Source of the DNA: a virus
Virus record (IMG/VR): IMGVR_UViG_3300024518_000326
Coordinates: 1 to 28,485 of that record
DNA: 28,485 nucleotides
Strand: one strand, 5' to 3'
This document shows positions 2,744 through 21,415 of this stretch, in pieces. Both the position numbers and the translations under genes were made by a program. A model generated the notes under the pieces. The model did not search any database. It had not been told where the DNA came from and was given only the letters and a program-made list of their open reading frames with translations. Positions within the stretch are counted from its first letter, which is position 1; each line of letters begins with the position of its first letter.

Positions 2744-2756
2744 TTTCTATTATATA
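2744..2756 (+). promoter_or_regulatory. Late motif copy 1 (TTTCTATTATATA)
   Basis: One of five exact copies of a 13-base motif. It sits in the 44-base gap between the tape measure gene and the coiled-coil gene at 2773, with 16 bases between the motif and the ATG. A role as a phage late promoter core is inferred from repetition and placement only. Confidence 0.6.
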
Positions 2757-2772
2757 ACACAAAAACTATATT

Positions 2773-3147
2773 ATGTATAAAGAATACCTACAAAAATTAG
2801 AAAAGCTTAAAGGTACTGAACTAAAAGGTACTGAATTAAAAAGCTATAAAATAAACTTATCTAAAATAGACGATATTGATGAAAAAATTGGTCAGGGATA
2901 TTTAAGCGACTTTGTAGAAGAAGCGTTAGACGACGCAACTGTTTTAATTACAAAAGCAAGAGATATAGTAAAATTTGATATGACTGATGCATACACAGAA
3001 GCAGAAGGTATGTTAAACGAACTTGAAGCAGATATTAAAGCGTTAGGTATAGACGCACCTGCCGAAGTAAAAACATTAAGAAAGAACTTAAATGATTTAG
3101 ACAAAGAGATTGACAAATGGGAAAGCAAAGTAAGGTCTTTCGGATAA
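2773..3147 (+). CDS. Small helical coiled-coil protein, probably virion-associated
   Basis: This 124-residue protein is almost wholly helical and charged, and I do not recognise the family. It begins with an imperfect internal repeat, LKGTE-LKGTE-LKSY (residues 12-25). Near the C-terminus it has an ALGI segment (IKALGIDAPAEV) before a final coiled coil. Similar ALGI segments occur in the C-terminal part of the protease at 3157 and in the protein at 4146, so the three may share an ancestral helical module. It is the first gene after late motif copy 1 and lies 9 bases before the protease gene, which points to a head assembly or structural role. Function is not established. Confidence 0.7.
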   Translation: MYKEYLQKLEKLKGTELKGTELKSYKINLSKIDDIDEKIGQGYLSDFVEEALDDATVLITKARDIVKFDMTDAYTEAEGMLNELEADIKALGIDAPAEVKTLRKNLNDLDKEIDKWESKVRSFG

Positions 3148-3156
3148 AATTATAAT

Positions 3157-4122
3157 ATGAAAAAGAAAACAAGGATTGTAGAATTAGTTATTTCAGACGA
3201 TAGCCAAGAACTAACGATAGACGCTATCAGTTTAGTATCAAGTCCTGCTATTGAAGAAGATTTTGTATTTTTTGGAAAAGAAAAGAACAATCTAACTTTC
3301 GCAAAGGTTGATGAAGAAAAAAGAATGTTAATCAGTCCTGCTCTTATACCTAACAAACAGATTTTCAGATACGACCCACAGACAGACACCGACTACTATG
3401 TTTACTTCTCAAAAGAAACGGTAGCACAAGCAGCAGCGTTATACTTAAAACACAATAACCACCACAAAGCGACTTACGAACATTCTGATAGAGTTTCAGG
3501 AGTTTTAACTATTGAATCTTGGATAAAAGAAGGCGAACAAGACAAGTCTAAAATGTACGGCTTTGATTTGCCTATCGGCACTTGGTTTGTTAAGATGAAA
3601 ATAGAGAATGACGAACTTTGGGAAAGAATAAAATCAGGCGAACTTAAAGGACTTTCAATAGAAGGGTATTTTATAGACCGTATGGAAACTATGAGTAAAG
3701 CAATAACTGACGAACAAATAAGAACTGCATACAAAGAACTACAAGCAGAAGGTAAGGTTAAGGTTGAGTTGGCTTTAATAGATGATATGGAAACTGCTTC
3801 TGATAGATTGAATAATTTTTTTGGAGAATCAAATAAATCTATACAAGCTGCAAGTTCTTTAGATGACCAATTAGATTCCTTAAAAACAAAAGCAAAAGCA
3901 GCGATAAAAGATTTGAACTTTGACAGTTCTGATATAAATAAATGGAGAGATAATGGCAAGAAATTAATATCTAAATTTGAAAAAGCAGCAAAAGAATTAG
4001 GGATTAATCCTGCACAAAATACAGAATATAAAATGTTGTTAAAAAAGATTGAAGAAGGTTATCAGCGTGATTTAACTATAAAAGATTGGGTTAGAGCTAC
4101 AAAAGAATCATTCAAAATCTAA
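3157..4122 (+). CDS. XkdF-like prohead protease with helical C-terminal extension
   Basis: Residues 1-180 match the pattern of XkdF-type head maturation proteases of Bacteroidota phages and PBSX-like elements: LVSSPAIEEDF, LIPNKQIFRYD, a YVYFSKETV block, then TYEHSDR and GLSIEGYF. By analogy with HK97-fold capsid proteases, His109 and Ser167 are the best catalytic candidates. It would process scaffold and capsid during prohead maturation. Residues 215-321 form a separate helical, lysine-rich region with an AKELGINP segment, resembling the neighbouring coiled-coil proteins. This could be an internal scaffold-like part removed on maturation. Coiled-coil, scaffold and major capsid genes follow, as expected for a capsid module. 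Confidence 0.85.
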   Translation: MKKKTRIVELVISDDSQELTIDAISLVSSPAIEEDFVFFGKEKNNLTFAKVDEEKRMLISPALIPNKQIFRYDPQTDTDYYVYFSKETVAQAAALYLKHNNHHKATYEHSDRVSGVLTIESWIKEGEQDKSKMYGFDLPIGTWFVKMKIENDELWERIKSGELKGLSIEGYFIDRMETMSKAITDEQIRTAYKELQAEGKVKVELALIDDMETASDRLNNFFGESNKSIQAASSLDDQLDSLKTKAKAAIKDLNFDSSDINKWRDNGKKLISKFEKAAKELGINPAQNTEYKMLLKKIEEGYQRDLTIKDWVRATKESFKI

Positions 4123-4142
4123 AATTAAATTAAAATTAAATT
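4121..4142 (+). repeat. Tandem 11-base A/T repeat in leader
   Basis: AAAATTAAATT occurs twice in tandem, followed by AAAATG, and fills the gap before the 4146 start codon. It probably acts as an unstructured A-rich translation leader of the kind used in Bacteroidota, which lack a strong Shine-Dalgarno system. Confidence 0.7.
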
Positions 4143-4145
4143 AAA

Positions 4146-4724
4146 ATGAAAGAACAAATATTAAAACTTCAAGAGGTCTTTGCAAAAGCAAAAGGCATAA
4201 GTATTGAATTGCAAGACTTAAAAACTGTTGAAAAACAAATGAAAGAAGTTGGCAGAAAAGCATCAATCATTGAAACTATTTTTAATGCTTTAGATGGTGA
4301 AATGCTTGACAGAAGGGTTTTAAGAGAAGATGCAGAAGAACAATTACAAAACGCTGATGATTATAAGCAAAATATAAAAGGTTCTAAAGAAGAAGTAGAA
4401 TTAGCGAAAAGTAGATTAGACAAAGCAAAGGACGAACTTAAAGATGACCAAGACGGATATAAAGAAGAAAACGATAAGTATAAAAAATTAGATGACAAAG
4501 TAAAAGCCAAAGAAAAATTAGTTAAAGCAAGACAGAAACAATATATTACAGAAAGCAAATCATTAGGCAAAGATGTATCTAAACTAAAAAAAGCGTATGC
4601 TGATTTACAAAAAGCAGGGAAGGCGTTAGGTATTGCTAAAATTCCTGTTGAAATGTATAATGAGTATTTAGCAGATGGGGAAGAATGGGGAACAGGTAAA
4701 TTGCCTTCAGGATTTACAGACTAA
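4146..4724 (+). CDS. Coiled-coil protein in capsid module
   Basis: This 192-residue protein is rich in Lys, Glu and Asp. A continuous coiled coil spans about 60-150 (many KxxLxxK/E heptads), followed by a KALGIAKIPVEMYNEYL segment and a short Gly-rich end. I do not recognise a named family. It lies between the XkdF-like protease and the acidic scaffold-like protein, so it may be an internal core, scaffold or minor capsid protein. The ALGI segment links it to the 2773 protein and to the C-terminal region of the protease. It is translated from an A/T repeat leader. Confidence 0.7.
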   Translation: MKEQILKLQEVFAKAKGISIELQDLKTVEKQMKEVGRKASIIETIFNALDGEMLDRRVLREDAEEQLQNADDYKQNIKGSKEEVELAKSRLDKAKDELKDDQDGYKEENDKYKKLDDKVKAKEKLVKARQKQYITESKSLGKDVSKLKKAYADLQKAGKALGIAKIPVEMYNEYLADGEEWGTGKLPSGFTD

Positions 4725-4750
4725 TCTAAAAATCAAATAGACTAATAACT

Positions 4751-4763
4751 TTTCTATTATATA
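4751..4763 (+). promoter_or_regulatory. Late motif copy 2 (TTTCTATTATATA)
   Basis: Exact copy of the five-member late motif, in the 88-base gap before the scaffold gene. It lies 10 bases before the ATG of an 11-codon poly-lysine ORF and about 50 bases before the scaffold ATG. Confidence 0.6.
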
Positions 4764-4773
4764 ATAAGTAAGA

Positions 4774-4809
4774 ATGCCTAAAAAGAAAAAAAAGAAAAAA
4801 AAATATTAA
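4774..4809 (+). CDS. Mini-ORF encoding MPKKKKKKKKY, possible leader peptide
   Basis: ATG, Pro, eight Lys codons (AAA/AAG), Tyr and TAA form an 11-residue ORF ending 3 bases before the scaffold ATG. Runs of AAA lysine codons are known to slow or slip ribosomes, so it could act as a translational leader that tunes scaffold output. It might equally be a tiny DNA- or RNA-binding peptide, or a chance reading of an A-rich leader. The ordered ATG-CCT start and in-frame stop favour a real ORF only modestly. Confidence 0.35.
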   Translation: MPKKKKKKKKY

Positions 4810-4812
4810 ATT

Positions 4813-5448
4813 ATGGAATTAAAGAAACAAATCTTACAAGCGTTAGGACTTGACAAAGAAGTTAATCTTGAATACCAAGACAAATTAGCAGACGGAACTA
4901 TTATAGTTTCGGAAGCTGACGAACTTGCAGCAGGAATTTCTATTTCTATCTTAACAGAAGACGGTACACAAATACCTTTACCTGTAGGGCAGTATGAAAC
5001 AGAAGGTGGTCAGGGTTTTTCAGTAGAAGAAGAAGGTATCGTCAAGGAACTTTACGAAAGTGAAGACGAAGAAGAAGTAGTAGAAGAAGAAGTAGAAGCA
5101 ACAGAAGAAGAAAGACAACCTAAAAAAATCAAAGAAACTAAAGAAGTTGAATTTGATAAGGTAGCTTTTATTGACGAAGTAAAGTCTGTAGTAGATGAAT
5201 TAGTAGCAAAGACAGAAAAAGATATTGAAGAATTAAAATCTGAACTTAACGACTTGAAAGAAGCAAACGGAAATCTTGAAACAGAAAAAGAAGAATTAAA
5301 ATCAGAAGTTGAAAAACTTTCTAAAGAACCTGCTGACAAACCTGTTAAAACTAACAAGTTCAAGTCTGAAAGAAAAGAATTATCTACTAACGAATATAGA
5401 AAACTTACACGACAAGAGAAGTATTGGTATAATATAAAAAATAATTAA
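4813..5448 (+). CDS. Acidic capsid scaffolding protein
   Basis: This 211-residue protein has a small folded N-terminal part (about 1-75), a very acidic stretch of repeated Glu/Asp/Val (about 80-100), a coiled coil (about 125-175) and a basic C-terminus. That layout and its place immediately before the major capsid gene are typical of scaffolding proteins of HK97-type phages whose capsid protein lacks a built-in delta domain. The basic C-terminal end is where such scaffolds often contact the capsid shell. It is probably cleaved or expelled by the 3157 protease. No family name is certain; the call rests on composition and context. Confidence 0.7.
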   Translation: MELKKQILQALGLDKEVNLEYQDKLADGTIIVSEADELAAGISISILTEDGTQIPLPVGQYETEGGQGFSVEEEGIVKELYESEDEEEVVEEEVEATEEERQPKKIKETKEVEFDKVAFIDEVKSVVDELVAKTEKDIEELKSELNDLKEANGNLETEKEELKSEVEKLSKEPADKPVKTNKFKSERKELSTNEYRKLTRQEKYWYNIKNN

Positions 5449-5467
5449 TAAATAAAAATTTAAAAAA

Positions 5468-6334
5468 ATGGGATTAACAATAACGAGTTCAACGTATAGC
5501 GGTTCACAAGCGGGGGCTTATTTACACGCAGCACTTAAAGGTGCTGATAGTTTAGAGTACGCTACGGTTCGTGACGCAGTAAACTACAAAGAAGTATTAA
5601 ATACTCTAACTAATTCAAATCTTGTTAAAGACGCAACTTGCGGCTTTGATGAGCAATCTTCTACTTTAACTATGACAGAAAGCGTTTTAGAAGTAGAGCA
5701 GTTTCAAATTAACCAAGACATCTGTCGTAAAACTTTACTTTCAGATTGGTCTTACTCACAAGAAGACGACTTTGTTGCTTTCGCTATGGCTTATTCAGCA
5801 GGAGTTATCGCTGACGGTATTGAAGGTGCTTTTTGGGCAGGAACAACAGCTACATCAGGACAATTTAATGGTATTACTACTTCTTATTCAGGTAGTATGA
5901 CAGCTTCAAGTGCTTCAGGTGCTTATACAGCAGCTAACATTATTGCAAATTTAGGAACTTTAGTAGCGAATATTCCTACTTCTGTTTATTTAAAAGATGA
6001 CTTATATATTTATATGAACAAAAAGCAGTACAGATTTTACATTCAAGCAATTTCTGCTTTAAGTGCTTTTCCTTTTAACCATATGGGAGAATACACACCT
6101 GAATTTGAGGGCGTAAAAATTGCCGTTGTAAGTGGTCTTGCTGACAATAAAATGTATGCAGGACAAAAATCTAACTTATTCTTTGGAACTTCAACAGCAC
6201 TTGATATGGATTTTAACGAAGTTAAAGTTTTGGATATGTCAGGAGTTGATGGTAGTCAAAATATAAGATTAGTAAGTCGTTGGACGGCAGGGGTGCAAGT
6301 AGGTGTAGCTGCTGACTTTACTTATCAATCGTAA
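5468..6334 (+). CDS. Major capsid protein (HK97 fold, Bacteroidota phage type)
   Basis: This 288-residue protein begins MGLTITSSTYSGSQAG and lacks a charged helical N-terminal delta region, consistent with a separate scaffold gene just upstream. The pattern of early helical segments, mid-protein Gly/Ser/Ala-rich strands (TTATSGQFNGITTSY) and a late strand-rich region (VKIAVVSGLADNKMYAGQKSN) resembles HK97-fold capsid proteins of flavobacterial phages. The KMYAGQKSNLFFGT segment recurs in this group. The gene sits after protease and scaffold and before the tail tube gene. The leader is purely A/T with no Shine-Dalgarno, so high expression would depend on an unstructured leader. Confidence 0.85.
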   Translation: MGLTITSSTYSGSQAGAYLHAALKGADSLEYATVRDAVNYKEVLNTLTNSNLVKDATCGFDEQSSTLTMTESVLEVEQFQINQDICRKTLLSDWSYSQEDDFVAFAMAYSAGVIADGIEGAFWAGTTATSGQFNGITTSYSGSMTASSASGAYTAANIIANLGTLVANIPTSVYLKDDLYIYMNKKQYRFYIQAISALSAFPFNHMGEYTPEFEGVKIAVVSGLADNKMYAGQKSNLFFGTSTALDMDFNEVKVLDMSGVDGSQNIRLVSRWTAGVQVGVAADFTYQS

Positions 6335-6358
6335 TAGTAACTTTAAAAACTAAATAAA

Positions 6359-6916
6359 ATGGCTTGTGATTTAATAAAAGGACATAGCATATCTTGTCGG
6401 GATGGAATCGGGGGTGTTAAAGCCATCTACTTAGGACAGTTTGAAGAAATTACTTTAACTGCTTCAGGTGGTGAAGTTACCGATATTGAAATGGGTACAG
6501 ATACTTTGTTTAAATACACTTGTAAGCGTGGTGTAGCAAGTATCACAGAAACCGTAAATGCTTCTTCAGAGGCAGGTACAGTTTTTTACACTCATTCTTG
6601 TAACTTCAAATTTAACAAACTTAGTAAAGAATATCAAAACGAGTTGCGTATGTTAGCACAAAACCGACTTATAGTTTTTGCCGAATTAAACGAACTTAAT
6701 AATGATGGGTACAATACTATTATGTGCTTAGGTGGTACTAACGGCTTAGAACTAACATCAGGTACAGGTGCTTCAGGTGCTGCTCTTGGTGATATGAACG
6801 GTTATGATTGGACATTAGAAGGTACTGAAAATAATCCTATGGACGAAGTTACTAATGATGCAGGTGCAGGTTTAGGTAATGCAGCGTTTACAATGGGTAC
6901 AATAGTAACAAGTTAA
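6359..6916 (+). CDS. Probable major tail tube protein
   Basis: This 185-residue protein starts MACDLIKGHSISCRDGIGG, an opening I associate with an abundant structural protein in Bacteroidota siphophages, usually considered the tail tube. It is beta-rich, with a paired strand region (ITETVNASSEAGTVFYTHSCNFKFNKL), an RMLAQNRLIVFAEL helix and a Gly/Ala-rich end. It directly follows the capsid gene and is followed by a strong terminator, fitting a highly expressed virion gene at the end of a transcript. The tail tube call is inference from pattern and place; a head-associated structural protein remains possible. Confidence 0.65.
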   Translation: MACDLIKGHSISCRDGIGGVKAIYLGQFEEITLTASGGEVTDIEMGTDTLFKYTCKRGVASITETVNASSEAGTVFYTHSCNFKFNKLSKEYQNELRMLAQNRLIVFAELNELNNDGYNTIMCLGGTNGLELTSGTGASGAALGDMNGYDWTLEGTENNPMDEVTNDAGAGLGNAAFTMGTIVTS

Positions 6917-6958
6917 AAAAACTTCTCAAAGTTTTATACTTTGTTTTCATAAACATTA

Positions 6959-6983
6959 GGGGGTTCGCAAGAACCCCTTTTTG
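6959..6983 (+). terminator. Rho-independent terminator after tail tube gene
   Basis: GGGGTTC, a GCAA tetraloop and GAACCCC form a perfect 7-bp stem, followed directly by TTTTTG. It lies 43 bases after the stop of the tail tube gene and about 45 bases before late motif copy 3. A transcript therefore ends here and a new one may begin just downstream. Confidence 0.9.
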
Positions 6984-7027
6984 TTTTATAGACAGATTAC
7001 TAACAGAATACAAATAATTACAAAGTA

Positions 7028-7040
7028 TTTCTATTATATA
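7028..7040 (+). promoter_or_regulatory. Late motif copy 3 (TTTCTATTATATA)
   Basis: Exact copy of the late motif, directly after a strong terminator and 14 bases before the ATG at 7055. A start signal is needed after a terminator, so this copy is the best single argument that the motif is a promoter. With the next bases it forms CTAT-TAT-ATAG, a small dyad. Confidence 0.65.
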
Positions 7041-7054
7041 GTAAGAAAGAGAAT

Positions 7055-7549
7055 ATGCTACATATAACTTACGGTTCAACAGGTACTTTTTATGTAACGA
7101 CTGAAGAAAAGCGAATAGATACTTCTGTAGTTACAAGTAAAATTCGGCTATTGTTTAAGTTTACAAACGACTTAGATAAAAGAATAGTCTATGCTTACGG
7201 ACAAGTCTTGGTTCATAATGACAGTATAAGAACTTATCAAAGATATACAAGAGCAACAATAGGACACAACACGACTGAAAATGTATTTACAGGTATGGTA
7301 AATTTCAAGCCCTTTGGTTATTGGAAATACGAAATCTATGAAGTTAGTTGGATAGGTACTGTAAGTTTAGCAGACGGTAGGTCGCCTTCTACAGAAACAG
7401 AGGTGTTATCAGTAGAAGATAATAACGGAGTAGTACAGGGCAAAGTAGAAACAGGAAAACTTTATGTAACAGAAACAGACGGAAGCGAACAAATAAAATA
7501 CACACAACACCCTGAACCATCAGGAACAAATTATATATGGACGAATTAA
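7055..7549 (+). CDS. Beta-rich virion protein of unknown function
   Basis: This 164-residue protein has alternating strand-like segments and no membrane segment or signal peptide. Two features stand out: a KFTNDLDKRIVYAYGQ segment near the N-terminus and a FKPFGYWKYEIYEV segment near residue 90, where a structural protein sheet would be expected. I recognise similar proteins only by their place after the capsid and tail tube genes of flavobacterial phages. It is the first gene after the terminator and late motif copy 3, and precedes a run of small and glycan-binding-like proteins. Head decoration or head completion are possible roles, but unproven. Confidence 0.7.
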   Translation: MLHITYGSTGTFYVTTEEKRIDTSVVTSKIRLLFKFTNDLDKRIVYAYGQVLVHNDSIRTYQRYTRATIGHNTTENVFTGMVNFKPFGYWKYEIYEVSWIGTVSLADGRSPSTETEVLSVEDNNGVVQGKVETGKLYVTETDGSEQIKYTQHPEPSGTNYIWTN

Positions 7550-7560
7550 AATAAAAAATT

Positions 7561-7860
7561 ATGAGTTTAATTGACAACAACAACACACTATTAAGAGAAA
7601 TGTTAGGCAAAGGCAAATGTGATGTAATAGCAACTACTGCTATGACAGGCAAGGACTATTACGCAGTACATTTTGTAACAGAAAGCGTTATTACTTCTAT
7701 TGCTATTGCAGGTGCAACTACTGCAACAGGTTCTGCTATTGCAAATCTTAATACAACTATTCCTGCAGGAACGGTTATCTATGGCAGAGTAACTGCTATA
7801 AATTTAGCTTCAGGTGTAGCAATATGTTATACTGAAACTGACGAAAAAGCTGCTGAATAG
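7561..7860 (+). CDS. Small beta-rich structural protein, possible decoration protein
   Basis: This 99-residue protein has a short helical start (LLREMLGKGKCDVIA) and then a strand-rich core full of Thr, Ala and Ile: ITSIAIAGATTATG, TTIPAGTVIYGRVTAI. The PAGTVIYGRVTAINLASG segment is typical of phage structural proteins that bind on the outside of capsids or tails. It overlaps the GTG start of the next gene by one base, so the two are likely translated together. The decoration role is inferred from size, composition and neighbourhood. Confidence 0.65.
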   Translation: MSLIDNNNTLLREMLGKGKCDVIATTAMTGKDYYAVHFVTESVITSIAIAGATTATGSAIANLNTTIPAGTVIYGRVTAINLASGVAICYTETDEKAAE

Positions 7861-8959: not shown

Positions 8960-9195
8960 TGGCACACCATAATAGAAAATACATAATAATAGACGCTTCA
9001 GAAGTTAGCACGATTGACTTCTCACAAGTAAACGAAACATCAGAAAATACTTTAAGGTATTCACTTGACGGTTCACAAACTTTTGTAAAATTTGACGGTG
9101 ATACACCAAGTTTTTTAGAAGGTAAAACATCATATACTCATAGTGAAATACTTACCATTTTAGACGGTACTGATTGGACTGAAGAAATAGAATAA
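8959..9195 (+). CDS. Small acidic hypothetical virion-region protein
   Basis: This 78-residue acidic protein is probably mixed alpha/beta. It contains IIIDASEVSTIDFSQV, then NTLRYSLDGSQTFVKF, and ends in a YTHSEILTILDGTDWTEEIE-like helix. No family is recognised. It is joined at both ends by one-base TAATG overlaps to its neighbours, so the four genes 7860-9920 form a tight translational unit. The SLDGSQTFVKFDGDTP strand pattern suggests a small folded domain rather than a peptide. Confidence 0.6.
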   Translation: MAHHNRKYIIIDASEVSTIDFSQVNETSENTLRYSLDGSQTFVKFDGDTPSFLEGKTSYTHSEILTILDGTDWTEEIE

Positions 9196-9920
9196 TGTTA
9201 GGACTAAAACAAAGTTTAGGTATAGCTAAAAAGAAAACTGCAACAGCAGCAGGTTCAAGTTTTGCTGATGATTATTCAATACTTCTTGACGGAACAAATG
9301 ATTATGTTAATTTAGCTGACGCAGCAAGTGAAGTTAGCGGTGTAACAGGTAGTATTTCGTTTTGGTTTAAAAGCCCCAATACTGGTGGCTATCCTTTTGA
9401 AATAAAAGTTGACACAAACAATTTTATTGTTGCATACTACGCATATGATGTTATGAACACACAACGTAGGTGTGCGGGGTCAAATAATTCTGCTACTGCA
9501 TTTTCTGATGGTAGTGGGGATGATGGGAATTGGCATCACCTTGCACTTACTTGGAGTGAAACGGCAGATAGACTAATATCATATGCAGATGGTTCTGCTG
9601 AAACAACAACAACCGGTATTGAAACAAGTTTTGCAGGAACTCCAAGTATTTTTACTATTGGCAAGCACTCCGGACATTGGAGTGGTGGGTATATGTCAGG
9701 TAATATAAATGATGTTTCGGTATGGAGTTCAGCGTTATCAGCAGGTGAAGTAGCTGCAATATATAATAGTGGAACACCAACCGATTTAAGTAGCGAAGAT
9801 GACTTAGTGGGGTATTGGAAGTTTGAAGAAAATACAGGTACGACAGTAGCAGACAGCTCAGACAATAGTAATGACGGAGCACTTGTTAATGGAACTGCTT
9901 GGAGTTCAACTACACCTTAA
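9195..9920 (+). CDS. LamG-domain virion protein with MLGLKQSL N-terminus
   Basis: This 241-residue protein starts MLGLKQSLGIAKKK, nearly identical to the start of the 7860 protein. It then carries a full LamG domain (about 27-235) with landmarks LDGTNDYVNL, SISFWFK, DGNWHHLALTW, IYNSGTPTDL and LVGYWKFEENTG...NSNDG. The domain is clearly homologous to that of the tail fibre at 27952/2-1132. It probably binds surface polysaccharide from the virion surface. It is the last gene of a coupled set and lies 12 bases before the portal gene, so it may be a head fibre or decoration protein. Confidence 0.75.
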   Translation: MLGLKQSLGIAKKKTATAAGSSFADDYSILLDGTNDYVNLADAASEVSGVTGSISFWFKSPNTGGYPFEIKVDTNNFIVAYYAYDVMNTQRRCAGSNNSATAFSDGSGDDGNWHHLALTWSETADRLISYADGSAETTTTGIETSFAGTPSIFTIGKHSGHWSGGYMSGNINDVSVWSSALSAGEVAAIYNSGTPTDLSSEDDLVGYWKFEENTGTTVADSSDNSNDGALVNGTAWSSTTP

Positions 9921-9932: not shown

Positions 9933-11795
9933 ATGGATAATAAAATAGAACTAAGCGTAGTAGAGTTAGCCGCACAAACTTCACCTGTTATAAAAGAAGC
10001 ATACGGAAAAGATTGGATTGAATACGGTACAGAAGACTATAGAAACCTTTACCCACAGTTCTTAATAGACCTTTACTACAACAGTTCTACACACGCTGCA
10101 ATCGTTAATCAGACAGCGTCAATGATTGCAGGAAGCGGCTTACAAATAGAAGACGAAACAAATCTTGAAGCTTTAGTACGACTTAAAAAGTTTATGGCTC
10201 AAGCGAACTCAAAAGAAACCTTACAGGAAGTTATAACTAAGATTAGTTTTGACCTTAAACTTCAGGGGGCTTACGCCCTTAATATTATTTGGTCTAAAGA
10301 CAGAACCGAAATATCAGAAATCTACCACATTGGGTGCGAGAAAATTAGGGCAGGAATACCTAACGAAATGGGCGTAGTAGATACTTATTATGTTTCTGCT
10401 GATTGGTCTAACCCAAGACAAAAAAATAACCGACCTACAGCTATACCTGCCTTTAATATGAAAGACAGAACTTCACCAAGTCAAATACTTTATTCAAGTC
10501 TTTATAGTCCTTCTATGCAGGTCTATGGAACGCCTGATTATAGCGGTTGTACTAATTGGTGTTTGACCGACCAATACGTAAGCGAGTTCCACTTGTCTAA
10601 TATAAAGAACGGCTTTGCAGGTTCTTATTTTATAAATTTTAACAACGGAGTACCGACAAGAGAAGAAAGAGTACAAGTAGAAAAACAAATAGCCGATAAG
10701 TTTTCAGGTGCTACAAATGCAGGAAAATTCGTACTTACTTTTTCAGACAGTAAAGACCGTGAACCTTCAATAACACCTATAAGTGTTTCTAACGCAGATA
10801 AGCAGTATCTTGCCTTACAAGAACTCTTAGTTCAAAACATCTTAACAGGACACCGAGTGGTTAGCCCAATGCTTTTTGGAATTAAAGGTGATGGTTCAGG
10901 GTTTGGCAATAACGCTGAAGAAATATCCACTTCTTACGAATTGTATCTTAATACAGTAGTCAAGCCATTTCAAGCAAATATCTTAAAGACTTTATCTAAA
11001 ATCTTTGAAGTAAATCAAATGAACCTACCTGTATCTATCAATCAGTTTACACCTATTTCTACTAAGTTTGATGACGAAACTCTTAAAGAAGTAATGACAC
11101 AAGACGAATTAAGAGGTGAATTAGGGCTTGAACCTTTAACAGACGAAGATACTGCTAACGAAGAATTTAGTCAAGAGAAAACAGAACTTGATAACTTTAT
11201 TGACGAATACGGAGAAGACGAACCTGAAGGTTATGACTTAATAGACGAAGAAATAGTAGAGTTTGAAGAAGAAGATTTTGACTTTGAAAAAGAACTAAAC
11301 GAAAAGCATAAAGTAAGATTTGCTTCAGTAGGTAGGGCTTATCCTGACGCACCTTCGTCTGAAATAGGTGAAGAAGGTTTTGATAGAGAATACAATTTAT
11401 ATAGAGTAAGATACGAATATGTAGAAGACGGATTTTTAACAAGAAAGTCAGGTAAGACAAGAGAATTTTGCAAGAAAATGATGTCAGCTAAAAAGATATA
11501 CCGTAAAGAAGATATATTAAGAATGGAGAATATGGGTGTAAATAAAGGTTGGGGTAAAGGTGGTGCAGACAATTACAATATCTTCTACTTCAAAGGTGGT
11601 GGTAACTGCCATCACTATTGGTTAAGGAAAATCTATTTCTTTAAGTTAGGTGAAGCAAGAGGTAAAAAACTAAAAGACGCTACTTCAATAGTAGGTATAA
11701 CAAAAGCAAGAAACAAAGGATTTTATCCTAAAGCAAATGACGCAAGAGTTTCAAAACCACCTAAGAGAATGGCTAATAAAGGATTTATAAAATAG
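9933..11795 (+). CDS. Portal protein with extra C-terminal Cys/His domain
   Basis: This 620-residue protein has a portal core at about 1-410. It includes DLYYNSSTHAAIVNQTASMIAGSGL, FDLKLQGAYALNIIWSKD, and a late SPMLFGIKGDGSGFGNNAEEI segment typical of Bacteroidota phage portals. A very acidic linker (about 415-465) joins a second domain with FCKKMMSAKKIYRKEDI, VNKGWGKGGADNYNIF and GGGNCHHYW. That domain resembles one I associate with protease or minor head proteins of related phages. The portal forms the 12-mer DNA gate at one capsid vertex. No separate minor head protein of the MuF type is seen here, so the fused domain may take that place. The connector gene follows after 4 bases. Confidence 0.85.
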   Translation: MDNKIELSVVELAAQTSPVIKEAYGKDWIEYGTEDYRNLYPQFLIDLYYNSSTHAAIVNQTASMIAGSGLQIEDETNLEALVRLKKFMAQANSKETLQEVITKISFDLKLQGAYALNIIWSKDRTEISEIYHIGCEKIRAGIPNEMGVVDTYYVSADWSNPRQKNNRPTAIPAFNMKDRTSPSQILYSSLYSPSMQVYGTPDYSGCTNWCLTDQYVSEFHLSNIKNGFAGSYFINFNNGVPTREERVQVEKQIADKFSGATNAGKFVLTFSDSKDREPSITPISVSNADKQYLALQELLVQNILTGHRVVSPMLFGIKGDGSGFGNNAEEISTSYELYLNTVVKPFQANILKTLSKIFEVNQMNLPVSINQFTPISTKFDDETLKEVMTQDELRGELGLEPLTDEDTANEEFSQEKTELDNFIDEYGEDEPEGYDLIDEEIVEFEEEDFDFEKELNEKHKVRFASVGRAYPDAPSSEIGEEGFDREYNLYRVRYEYVEDGFLTRKSGKTREFCKKMMSAKKIYRKEDILRMENMGVNKGWGKGGADNYNIFYFKGGGNCHHYWLRKIYFFKLGEARGKKLKDATSIVGITKARNKGFYPKANDARVSKPPKRMANKGFIK

Positions 11796-14175: not shown

Positions 14176-14206
14176 TTGTTAGAAATAAAAATAAGGTGTA
14201 TTTTTG
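14176..14206 (+). promoter_or_regulatory. Early promoter, Bacteroidota type (TTG-N20-TATTTTTG)
   Basis: A -33 TTG (14176-14178) is spaced by 20 bases from the -7 box TATTTTTG (14199-14206), fitting the TTG/TAnnTTTG consensus of Bacteroidota housekeeping sigma. Transcription would start near 14212, giving a leader of about 40 bases to the first early gene. Host RNA polymerase could therefore start early transcription without phage factors. Confidence 0.75.
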
Positions 14207-15828: not shown

Positions 15829-16454
15829 AGAAACCAAATTACTACGCAGTTCTTTCGGCAGAGGTGAGATACGCAGACATTACACCAAACGCTAAACTTC
15901 TGTATGCAGAAATAACTGCTTTTTGTGATATGAACGGAGAATGTTTTGCAAGTAATAGATATTTTGCAAAGCTTTATAATAAGAGTAAGGTTACTATATC
16001 AAAGTGGGTAAGAGAACTTTCAGAAAATGGCTTTATTGAAACATCTTATACCTATAAAGAGGGTACTAAAGAAATTGATAAGAGGTATATAAGAATTATT
16101 GGGGGGGGTATTAAAGAAAAGTTAAGTACCCCCTTAAAGAAAAGTTTAAAGAATAACAATACAAGTATTAATACTACAAGTTTAATAATATATAATAAGG
16201 AAAAATTTATTTCTGAAGTTAATAGTTTCAAAGCATATTACACAAAAGAGTTAAAAGAAGAATTTATTGACTATTGGACAGAACCTTCAAAAAGTGGTAG
16301 GTTGCGGTTTGAAATGCAAAAAACTTTTTCTGTATCTTTGCGGCTGAAAAGGTGGGCGAAAAATTCAAAGAAATTTAATAAAGGAACTAAAGGAACTTCT
16401 AAAATAGAAAGTCAATTAAATGAATACTTAAAAGCAAAAAAATTATTAAAATGA
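15825..16454 (+). CDS. Winged-helix replication initiator (DnaD/replisome organiser-like)
   Basis: This 209-residue protein has a GTG start overlapping the previous stop. Residues 1-85 form a winged helix of the phage replication-protein type: YYAVLSAEVRYADITPNAKLLYAEI, CFASNRYFAKLYNKSKVTISKWV, LSENGFIETSY. A low-complexity Asn/Ser/Lys linker (about 95-125) leads to a C-terminal block, EFIDYWTEPSKSGRLRFEMQ then RLKRW, that is shared by many phage initiators and probably contacts the helicase or its loader. The N-terminal domain would bind the origin. The linker DNA has hairpin, direct-repeat and palindrome features that may be the origin itself. Confidence 0.75.
   Translation: MKKPNYYAVLSAEVRYADITPNAKLLYAEITAFCDMNGECFASNRYFAKLYNKSKVTISKWVRELSENGFIETSYTYKEGTKEIDKRYIRIIGGGIKEKLSTPLKKSLKNNNTSINTTSLIIYNKEKFISEVNSFKAYYTKELKEEFIDYWTEPSKSGRLRFEMQKTFSVSLRLKRWAKNSKKFNKGTKGTSKIESQLNEYLKAKKLLK
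16101..16200. other. Candidate replication origin inside initiator gene
   Basis: Within the linker-coding part of the initiator gene are a run of eight G (16101-16108), an inverted repeat GGGGGTA/TACCCCC (16104-16110 with 16127-16133), a direct repeat TTAAAGAAAAGTT (16111 and 16134), and a perfect palindrome AGTATTAATACT (16164-16175) flanked by ACAAGT on both sides. A very A/T-rich stretch follows. Lambda-type phages place the origin inside the initiator gene at the same relative position. This is inference from arrangement. Confidence 0.4.
16309..16340 (+). promoter_or_regulatory. Possible internal promoter (TTG-N21-TATCTTTG)
   Basis: TTG at 16309-16311 and TATCTTTG at 16333-16340 fit the Bacteroidota consensus and could drive 16451 onward. 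The bases also encode a conserved protein segment, so the match may be a by-product of coding. Confidence 0.35.
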
Positions 16455-16783
16455 ATGTAGATAATATATGTGAACTTATAGCAAAAACTTCTATTGAATT
16501 AGGATTAAGAACTGATGCAGAAACAATGGTTACACTTTCTAAACTATTCTTTCAGGATTTGCAAACAGACAAAATATTAAAGTCCTTATCCTTAGAACAA
16601 GTACAAACAGCTTTTCGTTTAGGTGTAAGGTATGACCAAAAAGAACCCTTTTTAAATATCAGGACATTTTTTCGTTGGTGTTTTAAACATAAGGAAAGAA
16701 TAAATGAAGCAAGATACCAAGTTGAAACCTTACATCAAAACCCTAAAGAAGTAGAATACTATCCTAAAAACTTATTGAAGTGA
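16451..16783 (+). CDS. Replication-associated helical protein, unknown function
   Basis: This 110-residue helical protein contains LFFQDLQTDKILKSLSLEQVQTAFRLGVRY and FLNIRTFFRWCFKHKERINEARY. The pattern of a helical core followed by an aromatic/basic segment resembles small proteins that follow the initiator in Bacteroidota phages and might load or modulate the helicase. No named family is certain. It overlaps the initiator stop by 4 bases and the next tiny ORF by 4 bases, so all are translated in series. Confidence 0.65.
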   Translation: MNVDNICELIAKTSIELGLRTDAETMVTLSKLFFQDLQTDKILKSLSLEQVQTAFRLGVRYDQKEPFLNIRTFFRWCFKHKERINEARYQVETLHQNPKEVEYYPKNLLK

Positions 16784-16878
16784 AAATACTTTTATTAATC
16801 TATTTAATAGTCATAATAATCTTACTCCTTGAAGCGTACTTTTGTACTGAACCTGTTGATGACGATTTTGAAAACTAA
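16780..16878 (+). CDS. Tiny single-span membrane peptide
   Basis: The GTG start overlaps the previous stop. The 32 residues are mostly one hydrophobic stretch (ILLLIYLIVIIILLLEAYF, about 3-21) followed by an acidic end (EPVDDDFEN). It would insert in the inner membrane with a short acidic tail. Its early expression fits a small host-membrane or exclusion factor, but that is speculation. It overlaps the next gene by 20 bases in another frame. Confidence 0.5.
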   Translation: MKILLLIYLIVIIILLLEAYFCTEPVDDDFEN

Positions 16879-17266
16879 AGAACTTAAAGTAATTCAAAGA
16901 CTTGCGAAAGTCAAAAAATCTATACAAGCAGTAAGCTATAAATATTCACGCTTTGATGCAATAGACAATAAGAATATATACGAAATTAAATGCAGGGAAA
17001 AGTTCTATGATAAAATCTTAATAGAGTTTGATAAGTATAGTTTCAATCTTATTTACGCACAAACATTTAATAAAAACTTTCTTTATGTAGTTGAAATGGA
17101 TAAGATTTATATTTTTAATATAAGTAAATTGTATATGTTTGACTATAATTTTAATTGGGAATGGAAAGACCTGCCGAACCAAACAGAATTTAATAAGAAA
17201 GAAAATATAAAAAAACTTGTAGGATATATTGATATTAGTCAAGCAATTTATGAAATCAATAAGTAA
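16859..17266 (+). CDS. Possible PDDEXK-type nuclease
   Basis: I start at ATG 16859 (MTILKTKELKV, 135 residues); an upstream TTG at 16829 lies inside the membrane peptide gene. After an N-terminal helix comes FDAIDNKNIYEIKCREKFYDKILIEFDKY, with Asp33/Asp36 and Glu42-x-Lys44 spaced as in PDDEXK nuclease cores. Strands FLYVVEMDKIYIFNI follow, as expected for that fold. The gene lies directly before ninG and overlaps it by 17 bases, so a role in recombination or DNA processing is plausible. Family assignment is tentative. Confidence 0.5.
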   Translation: MTILKTKELKVIQRLAKVKKSIQAVSYKYSRFDAIDNKNIYEIKCREKFYDKILIEFDKYSFNLIYAQTFNKNFLYVVEMDKIYIFNISKLYMFDYNFNWEWKDLPNQTEFNKKENIKKLVGYIDISQAIYEINK

Positions 17267-17654
17267 ACTAAAAAAAGAGTTAGACAAATGGTTCAGCTTA
17301 TTTATTAGGTTAAGATGGGCTACAAAAGAAGGGCTTTGTCAATGTGTAACTTGTGGTAAGACCGGACACTATAAAGAAATGCAAAATTCTCATTTTCAAA
17401 GCAGACGACACCACGCAACAAGATGGGACGAACAAAATTGTCAGGTCGGTTGTGTAAAGTGTAATGTCTTTAATTATGGTGAACAATATAAATTCTCTAT
17501 TTATTTAGAGGGTAGGTACGGAGAAGGAACTGCAAAAGAATTAGAGTATCTTGCGAAACAAATTACAAAGATTAGTCGTACAGACTATGAAGAAAAAATA
17601 ACTTATTACAAAGACCTTGTTAAAAAGTTGAAAGACGAAAAAGGAATAGAATAA
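17250..17654 (+). CDS. ninG: NinG-like recombination protein
   Basis: I start at ATG 17250 (MKSISKLKKELDKWFSL, 134 residues), which matches the usual N-terminus of the family. Diagnostic features follow in order: a LDKWFSLFIRLR helix, CVTCGK, a SHFQSRRHHATRWDEQN histidine-rich block, CVKCN and a YLEGRYGEGTAKELE helix. NinG (Rap in lambda) acts on branched DNA in recombination; the Cys pairs bind zinc next to an HNH-like site. It overlaps the end of the possible nuclease gene. Together with the NinB-like protein at 19396 it gives this phage two members of the lambda nin-region set. Confidence 0.85.
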   Translation: MKSISKLKKELDKWFSLFIRLRWATKEGLCQCVTCGKTGHYKEMQNSHFQSRRHHATRWDEQNCQVGCVKCNVFNYGEQYKFSIYLEGRYGEGTAKELEYLAKQITKISRTDYEEKITYYKDLVKKLKDEKGIE

Positions 17655-17663
17655 AATTATTCT

Positions 17664-17671
17664 TAAATTTG
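17664..17671 (+). promoter_or_regulatory. Possible -7 promoter box (TAAATTTG)
   Basis: TAAATTTG fits the Bacteroidota -7 consensus and lies in the short gap after ninG, but no TTG is placed 19-21 bases upstream. Transcription would begin almost at the ATG of 17676, giving a leaderless mRNA. Weak. Confidence 0.3.
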
Positions 17672-17675
17672 CAAA

Positions 17676-18029
17676 ATGGTAAAGCCGATAGGAATAAACA
17701 GACAGCACGAAGTTATTTTAGACACCTACCTACTAACAGTTTGCGAAAGTATGCGAGAACTTTCAACCGAAACCAAGTATAATAATTTCCTTGACGTAGT
17801 TGATATAATAGTAAAGTACCATAATGAGTATTCTGCTAAAAAATTAGGTGCTTATTCTGACTTTATGTCTATAATTCCAACAAATGTAACAAGTTGTTAT
17901 AGTGGCTTTATTGCAGGAGTTGAAACAAAGAATAATAGTTCAACTTGCAGGGCTTATAAAACTTTACTAACTGAATTAAGTCATAACATAATATCTGATT
18001 TAGAAAAACTAAGACTTGAAAAAGATTGA
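17676..18029 (+). CDS. Early helical protein of unknown function
   Basis: This 117-residue helical protein has segments HEVILDTYLLTVCESMREL, NNFLDVVDIIVKYHNEYSAKKL and LTELSHNIISDLEKLRLEKD. No family is recognised. It overlaps the TTG start of the sigma-like gene by 14 bases, so the two are translated together and it might modulate that factor. This is only a contextual guess. Confidence 0.65.
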   Translation: MVKPIGINRQHEVILDTYLLTVCESMRELSTETKYNNFLDVVDIIVKYHNEYSAKKLGAYSDFMSIIPTNVTSCYSGFIAGVETKNNSSTCRAYKTLLTELSHNIISDLEKLRLEKD

Positions 18030-18585
18030 TAAGATATATAAACTAATTGCAGACAACAGAGATAGATTTATAGCGGTTGCTTCAAGATACACAGAAGATA
18101 AAAATGTAATAGACGAAGTGGTGCAAGAACAGATGTTATACTTTATGCAAATGAACAAACAGACTTTAACAGACATCTACGACAAAGACGGACTTGAAGG
18201 GCTTGTTAAGTACGGTGCAGTAGCTATTCACAGAGCCGTTACAAGTCCACGAAGTAACTATTACTATAAATACAGGAAATACTATACAAAGATAGACGGA
18301 AGCTACACGAACTATAACAGTCCAAACTGCAGAGATATAAGTCAGATACCTGCCGTTAAAGACGATTATCATAAGCACGAACTTATGGATAAGATAGAAA
18401 ACGCCTTAAAGACTATGTATTGGTACGATAAGAAAGTCTTTGAAGTTTATTATAACGAAGGACACACGCTTGACAGTCTTGCGAAAAAGACAGGAATAAG
18501 CAGAAACTCTTTGTTCACTACATTAAAGAAAGTGCGAACAAAACTAAAAGAAATACTTGATGACGAAATATTTTGTGAAGAATGA
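18016..18585 (+). CDS. Sigma-like transcription factor
   Basis: This 189-residue protein has a TTG start overlapping the previous gene. The N-terminal part (about 10-85) looks like sigma-70 region 2: FIAVASRYTEDKNVIDEVVQEQMLYFM, then a GLVKYGAVAIHRAV helix. The C-terminal part (about 120-183) is a region 4 helix-turn-helix: YWYDKKVFEVYYNEG, then HTLDSLAKKTGISRNSLFTTLKKVRTKLKEIL. It probably joins host RNA polymerase and directs it to phage promoters. It is the last regulator-like gene before the late block, whose genes carry a motif unlike the host consensus, so it is the obvious candidate to read it. An unrelated helix-turn-helix regulator is the alternative. Confidence 0.7.
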   Translation: MKKIDKIYKLIADNRDRFIAVASRYTEDKNVIDEVVQEQMLYFMQMNKQTLTDIYDKDGLEGLVKYGAVAIHRAVTSPRSNYYYKYRKYYTKIDGSYTNYNSPNCRDISQIPAVKDDYHKHELMDKIENALKTMYWYDKKVFEVYYNEGHTLDSLAKKTGISRNSLFTTLKKVRTKLKEILDDEIFCEE

Positions 18586-18958
18586 AATACGAAAAGAACG
18601 TCTTGATATATGTAAGAGTTGTGAATACTATTTTAAGCCGACAGGAAATTGTAAAAAATGCGGTTGCTTTATGAGAATAAAAACCACTTTAAGTTTTACA
18701 GAATGTCCTATCGGACTTTGGCAAAAGACAGAAGAAGTAGAACAGCCAAAAGAAATTCCTGCACACTTAGTAAAAGAAGTCTTAGAGGTTATGCCTGATA
18801 TTAAAAACGCCCAAGCGAAAGACCACGAAACGAAGGCACGATTAATTGAGTTGTATAATACAATATACGGAACGACCTACAAAATAACTACTAACTGTTC
18901 AAGCTGCTTACAATCAGTTTGGAAAGGAATAACAGCAATATATACCAAGAACAAATGA
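18560..18958 (+). CDS. Small zinc-binding protein (T4-like phage type)
   Basis: I take the ATG at 18560 (133 residues); a GTG at 18575 is also possible. The N-terminal domain has four well-placed cysteines, ICKSCEYYF...NCKKCGCFM, followed by RIKTTLSF, ECPIGLW, a compact zinc-binding domain seen in several T4-like and Bacteroidota phages. The C-terminal part is helical with a KDHETKARLIELYNTIYG block and a final Cys pair (TNCSSCLQ). Function is unknown. The domain suggests binding to nucleic acid or to a polymerase. It overlaps the sigma-like gene by 26 bases. Confidence 0.65.
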   Translation: MTKYFVKNEIRKERLDICKSCEYYFKPTGNCKKCGCFMRIKTTLSFTECPIGLWQKTEEVEQPKEIPAHLVKEVLEVMPDIKNAQAKDHETKARLIELYNTIYGTTYKITTNCSSCLQSVWKGITAIYTKNK

Positions 18959-19140
18959 ACTATAAAACAATCAAGTGGGTTTTGCGAAACCACATTAAAA
19001 ACAAAGTAAAAGCTTTATGGACTTGGGAAGACAATAACTTTACCTGCATATACGAAAACTACTCACAGTCGGACAGAATATATACAGCCGAACAATTACT
19101 TAAAAAAATAGACAATGAAATACAAGTGCAAAAAGTGTAA
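18955..19140 (+). CDS. Small hypothetical early protein
   Basis: The start is ATG 18955, overlapping the previous stop (ATGA), giving 61 residues; an upstream TTG in frame lies inside the previous gene. The protein is basic at its start (YKTIKWVLRNHIKNKVKALW) with a tryptophan-rich middle and a YTAEQLLKKIDNEIQV helix at the end. No family is recognised. It overlaps the next gene by 26 bases. Confidence 0.55.
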   Translation: MNYKTIKWVLRNHIKNKVKALWTWEDNNFTCIYENYSQSDRIYTAEQLLKKIDNEIQVQKV

Positions 19141-19399
19141 AGAAGAAAAAGAGATAACTAAAGGAACAATAGGAATATTTGACGATAGGGTAATATGTAA
19201 ACAAGCGTTTTGTTGTGGTGAGTATATGAAAGACATAGAAGAAGAATTTAACGGATTTCCTACAATAATAAGAAACGAATACACACAAACAGATAGAATA
19301 ATACAACATAAAGCAAACCAAAAAGAAAGACGATTAAAGAAAGACGGCTACGATAAAAATAACCCTAATGACAAACCACCTAAAAGACGGATAAGGTGA
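19115..19399 (+). CDS. Small zinc-ribbon-like protein
   Basis: This 94-residue protein begins MKYKCKKCKEEKEI and has a second pair in VICKQAFCCGEYM, a zinc ribbon pattern (CxxC...CCG). The C-terminal half is highly basic (KERRLKKDGYDKNNP...PPKRRIR) and probably unstructured, as in nucleic-acid binders. Its GTG-coupled neighbour is the NinB-like gene. Role unknown; early recombination or transcription accessory is possible. Confidence 0.6.
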   Translation: MKYKCKKCKEEKEITKGTIGIFDDRVICKQAFCCGEYMKDIEEEFNGFPTIIRNEYTQTDRIIQHKANQKERRLKKDGYDKNNPNDKPPKRRIR

Positions 19400-19629
19400 T
19401 AAGAAGCGAAAGACAAAATAAATACTATTGGAAGTGTATAGTCAAGCCCCTGTCAGACTACACAGGTTATCATAAGTTTGAAATGCACTCCTGTTTGAAG
19501 GACTTGTTTATTCTAAGCACGACAAAAGAATTAGACAAACAAGAATTTAATCAGTTCTGTGAAGAAATAAGGGCTTGGGCTTCAACAGACTTAGGAGTAC
19601 ACTTACAAGCACCAAATGAATTTAACTAA
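19396..19629 (+). CDS. NinB-like recombination accessory protein
   Basis: This 77-residue protein starts at a GTG overlapping the previous stop. The sequence RSERQNKYYWKCIVKPLSDYTGY...FEMHSCLKDLFI followed by STTKELDKQEFNQFCEEIRAW and DLGVHLQAPNEF fits a short protein of the NinB/Orf family seen in phage recombination blocks. It is shorter than lambda NinB (about 146 residues), so it matches only the C-terminal core pattern. It is the last early gene: late motif copy 4 begins one base after its stop. Confidence 0.6.
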   Translation: MIRSERQNKYYWKCIVKPLSDYTGYHKFEMHSCLKDLFILSTTKELDKQEFNQFCEEIRAWASTDLGVHLQAPNEFN

Positions 19630-19642
19630 TTTCTATTATATA
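19630..19642 (+). promoter_or_regulatory. Late motif copy 4 (TTTCTATTATATA)
   Basis: Exact copy of the late motif in the 15-base gap between the early block and terS. Only 2 bases separate it from the terS ATG, so if it is a promoter core the mRNA would be leaderless or begin inside terS. That is a point against a simple promoter reading here. Confidence 0.55.
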
Positions 19643-19644
19643 CT

Positions 19645-20010
19645 ATGGAAGCACAAAAACGCACACAAGAAGCAAAAAAGAAACTGATAGCAGCACTTGA
19701 AAAGTCTTTAGGTATTGTTACCGAAGCTTGCGAAAAAGCAGAACTCAGTAGAAGACAGCATTATGTATGGTACAAAGAAGACGAAGACTATCGGAAGTCA
19801 GTAGATAGTATAGAAGGTAAGTATATTGACTTTGCTGAAACACATCTTAAAGAACAAATAGAAAAAGGTTCTACTCCTGCAACTATCTTTTACTTAAAGA
19901 CAAGAGGACGCAAAAGAGGTTATAACGACACATTAGATATTACTTCAGACAACGAACCTATTATTATCGAATTTAATATAGATGCGAGTAAGACCGAAAC
20001 TAACGAATAA
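19645..20010 (+). CDS. terS: Terminase small subunit
   Basis: This 121-residue protein has an N-terminal helix-turn-helix (KKLIAALEKSLGIVTEACEKAELSRRQHYVW) that would bind the packaging site. An oligomerisation helix region follows (SVDSIEGKYIDFAETHLKEQI), then TPATIFYLKTRGRKRGY, a segment common in small subunits of Bacteroidota phages. An acidic tail probably contacts TerL. It overlaps the terL start by 29 bases. The ring it forms recognises phage DNA and hands it to TerL. Confidence 0.85.
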   Translation: MEAQKRTQEAKKKLIAALEKSLGIVTEACEKAELSRRQHYVWYKEDEDYRKSVDSIEGKYIDFAETHLKEQIEKGSTPATIFYLKTRGRKRGYNDTLDITSDNEPIIIEFNIDASKTETNE

Positions 20011-21295
20011 ACAAGAAATTGCTTTCGCCTATCTTAAAGACAAAGAAACTACTGAAATACTTTTCGGTGGTGGTGCAGGGGGTGGTAAGTCTTGGTGGAT
20101 TTGTGCAGTTTTAATATCACAATGCTTAAAGTATAAAGGTATAAGATGTTTACTTGGTAGGGCAAAATTAGACACACTTAAAAAAACAACGCTAAATACT
20201 TTCTTTGAAGTTTGCCAACAATGGAATTTAAAAACACCTGAACACTATGCTTACAATGCTCAAACAAATATCGTTTCTTTTTTCAATGGTTCTGAAATCT
20301 ATCTTAAAGACTTGTTTCAATATCCTTCTGACAGGAATTTTGATAGTTTGGGTTCTTTGGAACTCACTCTTGCGGCTATTGACGAGTGTAATCAAATTAC
20401 TGAAAAGGCAAAGCAAATAGTCAGCAGTAGAATAAGATACAAGTTAGATAAATTTGACCTTACTCCAAAACTAATTCTAACCTGCAACCCTTCAAAGAAT
20501 TGGACTTATTCAGATTTTTATAGACCTGCTAAAACTAAAGAACTACCAAGTCATAGGAAGTTTGTAAAAGCGTTAGTAGATGACAACGAAAACATTTCTA
20601 AACACTACAAAGAACAATTAGGCAAGTTAGATAGACTAAGTAAAGAAAGACTACTATTTGGAAATTGGGAGTATGACGATAATGACGACAGTCTTATTCT
20701 ATACGATAAGATAATAGATTTATTCACTAACGAAGCACAGTTAGGTGATAAGCATATTACTTGTGATGTCTCAAGGTTCGGACAGGACAGAACGGTGATA
20801 ATGGTTTGGAATGGCTTACAGGTTATAGAGATAAAGACCTTTGCAAAGTCAAGCGTTACGGAAGTGGCTAAGGCAATAGAAGACCTACAGTTTAAGCACG
20901 AAGTTAAAAGGACTAACATAACAATAGACGAAGATGGTGTAGGTGGTGGTGTTGTAGATATGCTACCAAGTTGCAGAGGGTTTGTAAATAACAGCAGGGC
21001 TTTGAATAGTGAAAACTTTAAAAACTTAAAGACACAATGTTATTATAAGTTAGCAGAAAAGATAAACAAAAACGAAATAGGAGTAACCACTAACGACATA
21101 ATGATTAAACAATACATAATTGAAGAACTTGAAAATGTCAGAAGTAAAGACCACGATAAAGACACCAAGCTATCAATAGTAAGTAAAGATGTAATAAAGT
21201 CTTTAATAGGTAGGTCGCCTGATTTTGCAGATAGTCTTGCTATGCGTATGTATCACGAAGTACAAAAGAACTACGGTAGATACTTTGTTCAGTAA
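19982..21295 (+). CDS. terL: Terminase large subunit
   Basis: This 437-residue packaging motor has an N-terminal ATPase with a Walker A at 29-37 (GGGAGGGKS) and Walker B LAAIDE (Asp134/Glu135), followed by the LTCNP coupling motif near 166-170. The C-terminal nuclease of RNase H type has ITCDVSRFGQDRTV (Asp262, Asp269), TIDEDGVGGG (Asp316 region) and a final PDFADSLAM acid. It pumps DNA through the portal and cuts the concatemer. The gene starts inside terS in another frame, a common arrangement. Unusually, the portal gene is not next to it but about 17 kb further on around the circle. Confidence 0.95.
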   Translation: MRVRPKLTNKQEIAFAYLKDKETTEILFGGGAGGGKSWWICAVLISQCLKYKGIRCLLGRAKLDTLKKTTLNTFFEVCQQWNLKTPEHYAYNAQTNIVSFFNGSEIYLKDLFQYPSDRNFDSLGSLELTLAAIDECNQITEKAKQIVSSRIRYKLDKFDLTPKLILTCNPSKNWTYSDFYRPAKTKELPSHRKFVKALVDDNENISKHYKEQLGKLDRLSKERLLFGNWEYDDNDDSLILYDKIIDLFTNEAQLGDKHITCDVSRFGQDRTVIMVWNGLQVIEIKTFAKSSVTEVAKAIEDLQFKHEVKRTNITIDEDGVGGGVVDMLPSCRGFVNNSRALNSENFKNLKTQCYYKLAEKINKNEIGVTTNDIMIKQYIIEELENVRSKDHDKDTKLSIVSKDVIKSLIGRSPDFADSLAMRMYHEVQKNYGRYFVQ

Positions 21296-21309
21296 AGACT
21301 AAAAGAAAA

Positions 21310-21331
21310 AGCCGTGCCAAGCGACACGACT
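21310..21331 (-). terminator. Possible minus-strand terminator after terL
   Basis: AGCCGTG, an 8-base loop and CACGACT form a 7-bp stem with one mismatch on the + strand and a G-U pair on the - strand. Read on the minus strand it is followed by TTTTTCTTTT, a classic U-tract. No T-run follows it on the + strand. No minus-strand gene is seen that it could serve. Confidence 0.45.
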
Positions 21332-21402
21332 AATCCTCAAAACAAGTATTACGACAGGGCAAATATACATTAATTTTTCTATTTTAAACTAAATAAACAA
21401 AT

Positions 21403-21415
21403 TTTCTATTATATA
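21403..21415 (+). promoter_or_regulatory. Late motif copy 5 (TTTCTATTATATA)
   Basis: Exact copy, in the 127-base gap between terL and the tail chaperone gene, 7 bases before the ATG. A degenerate copy, TTTCTATTTTAAA (11 of 13), lies 27 bases upstream at 21376-21388. Confidence 0.6.

Follow-up and report, generated by a model that had tools for sequence, protein, structure and literature searches.

Predicted two-part late promoters and a candidate cognate sigma factor in a group of uncultured phages

Introduction

The use of a phage-encoded sigma-like protein for late genes is known from T4, whose late promoter (TATAAATA) functions with gp55, and from Bacillus subtilis PBSX with Xpf. Late transcription in T4 needs the sliding clamp and proceeds without a -35 element. 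A sigma-like protein for late genes is what the locus described here would have in common with both systems, to which it is unrelated in sequence.

The closest known case would be Salmonella phage 7-11, whose own sigma factor, SaPh711_gp47, recognises late promoters made of two elements, GTAAtg-(16)-aCTA (PMC8948821). As in phage 7-11, bipartite promoters are found here before late genes only and a phage-encoded sigma factor, in our case a predicted one, would act on the host RNA polymerase; the early genes, which phage 7-11 places under host sigma70 promoters, lie under a host-type promoter here as well. Phage 7-11 differs, however, in being a ~90-kb phage of Enterobacteriaceae with other promoter letters, and as far as tested its sequences bear no relation to those here. 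E. coli phage phiEco32 is partly alike, since its sigma factor gp36 redirects the host polymerase to middle and late genes (box tAATGTAtA), but its promoter consists of a single element because gp36 is without a recognisable region 4 (PMC8948821), whereas the window has the two elements as well as a region-4-like domain. The mechanism itself would therefore already be familiar from phage 7-11 and in part from phiEco32; new would be the promoter letters, the sigma family and the host group, possibly together with leaderless late mRNAs.

Late control in phages of Bacteroidota has hardly been studied, and the open-access full-text literature yielded nothing on sigma factors in Cellulophaga, Flavobacterium and Bacteroides phages. 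Housekeeping promoters of this phylum carry TTTG at -33 and TAHHTTTG at -7 and are recognised by sigma-ABfr (PMC6847099); the late element reported below has neither of these boxes.

We analysed a stretch of viral DNA of 28,485 nucleotides from IMG/VR, hereafter called the window. Its first and last 163 bases (1-163 and 28323-28485) agree at 98.2%, which indicates a near-complete genome with a circular map of ~28.3 kb. The reading that we favour, with a probability of roughly 0.87, is that five copies of a box in this window are the -10 boxes of late promoters used by the host RNA polymerase together with a phage sigma factor (ORF 18016-18585), early transcription starting from a host-type promoter at 14176-14206.

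Results

Copies of the late box and the host-type promoter in the window

Counting both strands, we found five exact copies of TTTCTATTATATA in the window, all on the plus strand (2744, 4751, 7028, 19630 and 21403) and all at the positions reported in a preliminary description of this DNA. The opposite strand held no exact copy, the reversed pattern had no match in the window, and 100 dinucleotide-preserving shuffles of the whole 28,485-base sequence produced none, which bears out the earlier claim that the repeat exceeds chance. That description had also placed every copy before late genes, left the early block free of them and noted a strong terminator ahead of the third copy. All of this was confirmed: a late-block ORF starts 2-49 nt past each box (16, 49, 14, 2 and 7 nt, in the order given above), no copy lies at 14.2-19.6 kb, and the terminator is among the features listed here, together with homologous sites in relatives (record:position).

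2727-2756, plus strand: predicted late promoter 1; upstream element AAAACAAA (2727-2734), 9 nt, box TTTCTATTATATA (2744-2756); predicted +1 at A2759, leader of ~14 nt; before ORF 2773-3147 and the head protease gene 3157-4122; homologous site G012:13381
4734-4763, plus strand: predicted late promoter 2; upstream element CAAATAGA (4734-4741, the weakest of the five), box 4751-4763; predicted +1 at A4766; before ORF 4813 and the major capsid protein candidate 5468-6334; homologous sites G005:24623, G007:1279, G011:27383, G012:14614
6958-6979, plus strand: intrinsic terminator (AGGGGGTTCGCAAGAACCCCTT and T-run) upstream of late promoter 3
7011-7040, plus strand: predicted late promoter 3; upstream element CAAATAAT (7011-7018), box 7028-7040; predicted +1 at A7043; before ORF 7055; homologous sites G005:26910, G007:3788, G011:348, G012:16982, G015:22608
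9933-11795, plus strand: portal protein gene, downstream of promoter 3 (Pfam Phage_portal, 4.6e-12)
14176-14206, plus strand: putative early promoter of the host (Bacteroidota) type, TTG-N20-TATTTTTG, heading the early block
18016-18585, plus strand: phage sigma-like protein, 189 aa, in the last part of the early block
19613-19642, plus strand: predicted late promoter 4; upstream element CAAATGAA (19613-19620), within the 3' end of ORF 19396; box 19630-19642; predicted +1 at A19645, which coincides with the first base of the start codon of the terminase small subunit gene (leaderless); homologous sites G012:2651, G013:17248, G003 and others
19645-20010 and 19982-21295, plus strand: terminase small and large subunit genes, behind promoter 4 (PHROG 4044, Pfam Terminase_6N)
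21386-21415, plus strand: predicted late promoter 5; upstream element AAACTAAA (21386-21393), box 21403-21415; predicted +1 at A21418; before ORF 21423; the element also occurs 3' of the terminase large subunit gene in ~45 relatives

Late promoter 2 is the only copy with a long leader. An 11-codon ORF (MPKKKKKKKKY, 4774-4809) lies between this promoter and gene 4813.

The motif had been described as unlike the host form TTG/TAnnTTTG. Consistently, the -7 element TAHHTTTG of the Bacteroidota housekeeping promoter is absent at all five late sites, and one clear host-type promoter instead precedes the first early ORF, where TTG-N20-TATTTTTG fits the TTTG / TAHHTTTG scheme. A similar host-type promoter was found at the same junction in three relatives (G012, 21844; G007, 9036; G013, 7763), and judging from the sequence this promoter is likely used for the early block. 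A scan for E. coli sigma70-type promoters gave 62 and 69 matches against ~50 expected in shuffles and was uninformative here.

A second element at a fixed distance from the box

Aligning 111 sites from relatives, we detected a second conserved block, [AC]AA[AC][TC][AG]AA, spanning -17 to -10 relative to the box. The full element comprises this block, exactly 9 nt, [TA]TTCTATTATATA and then n-T-purine. The 13-mer of the preliminary description is thus a real repeated element, but it represents the downstream half only, the upstream half having been missed.

The exact block AAACTAAA is present in 45 of the aligned sites, each time at the identical distance from the box. Using a scan of IMG/VR viral contigs for AAACTAAA-N(4 to 16)-TTTCTATTATATA, in which sites were not picked by eye, we observed a 9-nt gap in 117 of 119 among the matches listed (118 loci), even though any distance of 4-16 nt was allowed; the spacers of the 9-nt class comprised 52 distinct sequences among the matches listed. 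The upstream block was seen at three non-homologous kinds of junction, two of which are intergenic. At junction 4 its conservation is not independent, as the element overlaps codons for a conserved C-terminus.

Ranking window positions by a matrix that drew on relatives alone placed four of the upstream halves within the top 0.004-0.1% of positions, and that of copy 4751 was weak (6%). A matrix derived from the post-terminase sites alone transferred poorly to the structural-gene sites (best shift -4), because the latter carry CAAA in place of AAAC, and a matrix from the terminase-small-subunit side peaked at the right register in both other site classes. The degenerate copy that had been proposed at 21376 (TTTCTATTTTAAA) does not carry the upstream element at the required spacing, and we rejected it as a promoter of this class. 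Its upstream rank is 0.78, compared with 0.00004-0.06 for the five confirmed copies, and it runs at its end into the -35-like element belonging to promoter 21403.

Conservation in related phages

Relatives were retrieved using the large terminase and the sigma-like protein as queries. In the records with a sigma gene, the late strand bears repeated copies of WTTCTATTATAWA, with hardly any match to the reversed control pattern. One relative, G012, has all five sites at homologous junctions: before the terminase small subunit gene, 3' of the terminase large subunit gene, 3' of a tape-measure-like gene, before the homolog of 4813 adjoining the capsid gene and before the homolog of 7055. Subsets of these sites are present in G005, G007, G011, G013 and G015. 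Related phages accordingly keep the sites before homologous late genes, in support of the promoter function proposed at the outset.

In a diverged sister clade (G016/G017/G018, corresponding to L006, L009 and L010), the sigma-like protein is ~50% identical. As read in G016 and G017, the box at the same junctions is TTTCTATTACTnATTAA or a close variant, with a changed 3' half; the changed box of this clade is also given as TTTCTATTACTnATTAAGGA. In this clade the sites have thus stayed in place and their letters have drifted.

Taken together, these sequence comparisons strongly support the reading of the five copies as promoters.

No near-identical DNA was found in GenBank phages. Among named phages, Flavobacterium phage 11b and Cellulophaga phage phi10:1 encode the terminases nearest to that of the window, which suggests a host among the Flavobacteriia.

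A predicted sigma factor encoded in the early block

The product of ORF 18016 matches the sigma factor families PHROG 1190/1740. Pfam Sigma70_r4 was detected in 41 of 49 homologs, weakly and below threshold, the window protein itself lying below the curated cut-off, and Sigma70_r2 was detected weakly in three of the 49. A sequence search of solved structures returned only FliA, as a weak match, and tblastn of the protein against GenBank phages gave nothing at E 0.001. The gene is carried by hundreds of uncultured relatives.

A first structure model based on 12 sequences was poor (pLDDT 64) and was replaced by an AlphaFold model made with the 49-homolog alignment (mean pLDDT 81). This model comprises helices at residues 3-90, a low-confidence linker at ~97-116 and helices at 117-185, and predicts two domains, a sigma-2 and a sigma-4, with a short linker between them in the layout of ECF (group 4) sigma factors. 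Every one of the best PDB matches of the model was a sigma factor, and M. tuberculosis SigL and E. coli sigmaE ranked near the top; a hinge between the two domains accounts for the large rmsd over the whole model. Taken alone, the region-4 domain superposed on sigmaE region 4 bound to -35 DNA (2h27_D) with Z 10.0 and an rmsd of 2.1 over 69 residues. The sigma domain 2 predicted for residues 1-90 is supported mainly by the model.

Directly 3' of the sigma gene, 18557-18958 encodes a small cysteine-rich protein (Pfam DUF6171, 1.2e-6), a homolog of which follows the sigma gene in every whole relative in which that gene was located. This protein could possibly be a sigma partner or an anti-sigma factor.

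Linkage of the sigma gene and the promoter

Among relatives chosen by their sigma gene (110 loci), 72 exact copies of the box were on the strand of the sigma gene and one on the other. We also assembled 15 records of 19-31 kb picked by the promoter pattern alone. A sigma gene was present in 13 of these, the two exceptions being ~20-kb fragments with the promoter and no sigma gene in the stretch covered. No genome among the 15 records had promoter matches on both strands (41 matches in all), and wherever the sigma gene was found the matches shared its strand.

These data bear on the reading in which an alternative sigma factor of the host recognises the element and ORF 18016 is otherwise employed, for example as an activator whose DNA-binding domain resembles sigma-4. 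Bacteroidota commonly have ECF-type sigma factors, which would suit this reading, as would the fact that sequence searches firmly see just the region-4-like part of the protein. It is nevertheless improbable, since the element tracks the phage gene: all nine promoter-chosen records of at least 27 kb have the sigma gene, whereas ten terminase relatives in which no sigma gene was detected (15-31 kb, ~240 kb in total) showed one stray promoter match, the repeated motif being absent from all ten. The model moreover places the sigma-2 domain at residues 1-90 with high confidence. Within the clade, the co-occurrence of gene and promoter is partly a matter of shared descent; the sister clade, in which sigma factor and box have both changed, points in the same direction as a linkage of the two.

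The product of ORF 18016 is thus likely to be the reader of the five late promoters, a reading for which we infer sigma function, promoter activity, late timing and start sites. According to this model, the host RNA polymerase would first transcribe the early block from 14176-14206, and the early transcript would include the sigma gene near its end. The phage sigma factor would then redirect the host enzyme to the five late promoters, its domain 4 reading the upstream element and its domain 2 the TTTCTATTATATA box. Five late transcripts would result, covering the terminase, connector/tail, head protease and scaffold/capsid genes and the downstream genes from head to lysis. The sole ORF long enough for a T7-type RNA polymerase (25193, 919 aa) has no Pfam match and belongs to an unknown PHROG.

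Start sites and leaderless late mRNAs

In 45 of the 111 sites an ATG begins 2 nt past the box, and in 17 it begins 4 nt past it. The purine 2 nt past the box is conserved and is often the A of the ATG. Counting the first box base as 0, we found an A at +15 in 38 of the 41 ATG-distant sites and in all five window copies. The retention of this A suggests that it is the +1, and hence that the mRNA of the terminase small subunit (19645) is leaderless; late mRNAs would be leaderless wherever the ATG adjoins the promoter in this manner. In F. johnsoniae, leaders of >10 nt were reported for 87% of predicted transcripts (PMC6847099), so that leaderless mRNAs for key late genes, the terminase included, would set the phage apart from most host mRNAs. 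We consider it an even bet that a large group of uncultured marine Bacteroidota phages has a promoter class of its own, served by an undescribed sigma family and giving key late mRNAs that begin at the A of the AUG.

The repeats might instead be operators at which a phage regulator, by activation or by loading of an antiterminator, acts on otherwise host-type late promoters. Late genes of many small phages are governed by activators or antitermination, and further regulators are encoded here, such as the HTH proteins 15301 and 15825. We regard this as very unlikely, given that a host-type TAHHTTTG box with its partner is absent at the five sites and that the rigid two-part spacing and a box adjoining the start codon are features of a promoter itself. 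That the motif acts in RNA, as a translation enhancer or processing site, is hardly credible: its end lies 2 or 4 nt before the ATG in more than half of the sites, but the ATG lies anywhere from 0 to >30 nt away whereas the halves keep a fixed distance from each other, the upstream half extends into the preceding coding region, and the purine at position 15 is retained where no ATG is present.

Implications and further observations

On the favoured reading of a phage sigma factor with its own late promoters, a defined promoter and a candidate sigma factor are available together with hundreds of natural variants, one clade of which has diverged in both. As the sigma gene is found in hundreds of uncultured relatives, the early-late switch of the group is open to testing, and late operons could be annotated in hundreds of uncultured marine phages. 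The sigma factor and changed box of G016-G018 would form a natural swap pair with the window sigma factor and TTTCTATTATATA, and the system may offer an orthogonal expression pair for Bacteroidota. Likewise, leaderless translation becomes testable in a phylum that lacks Shine-Dalgarno sites.

Two contigs (L122 and L123) from metagenome-assembled genomes called Pseudooceanicola and Euryarchaeota also have this sigma gene along with the post-terminase promoter; these contigs look like wrongly binned phage DNA. Finally, the window contains two laminin-G-like ORFs (107-1132 and 9195-9920) that are apparent paralogs, each matching the same stretches in relatives as the other, and this suggests a family of surface or tail adhesins.
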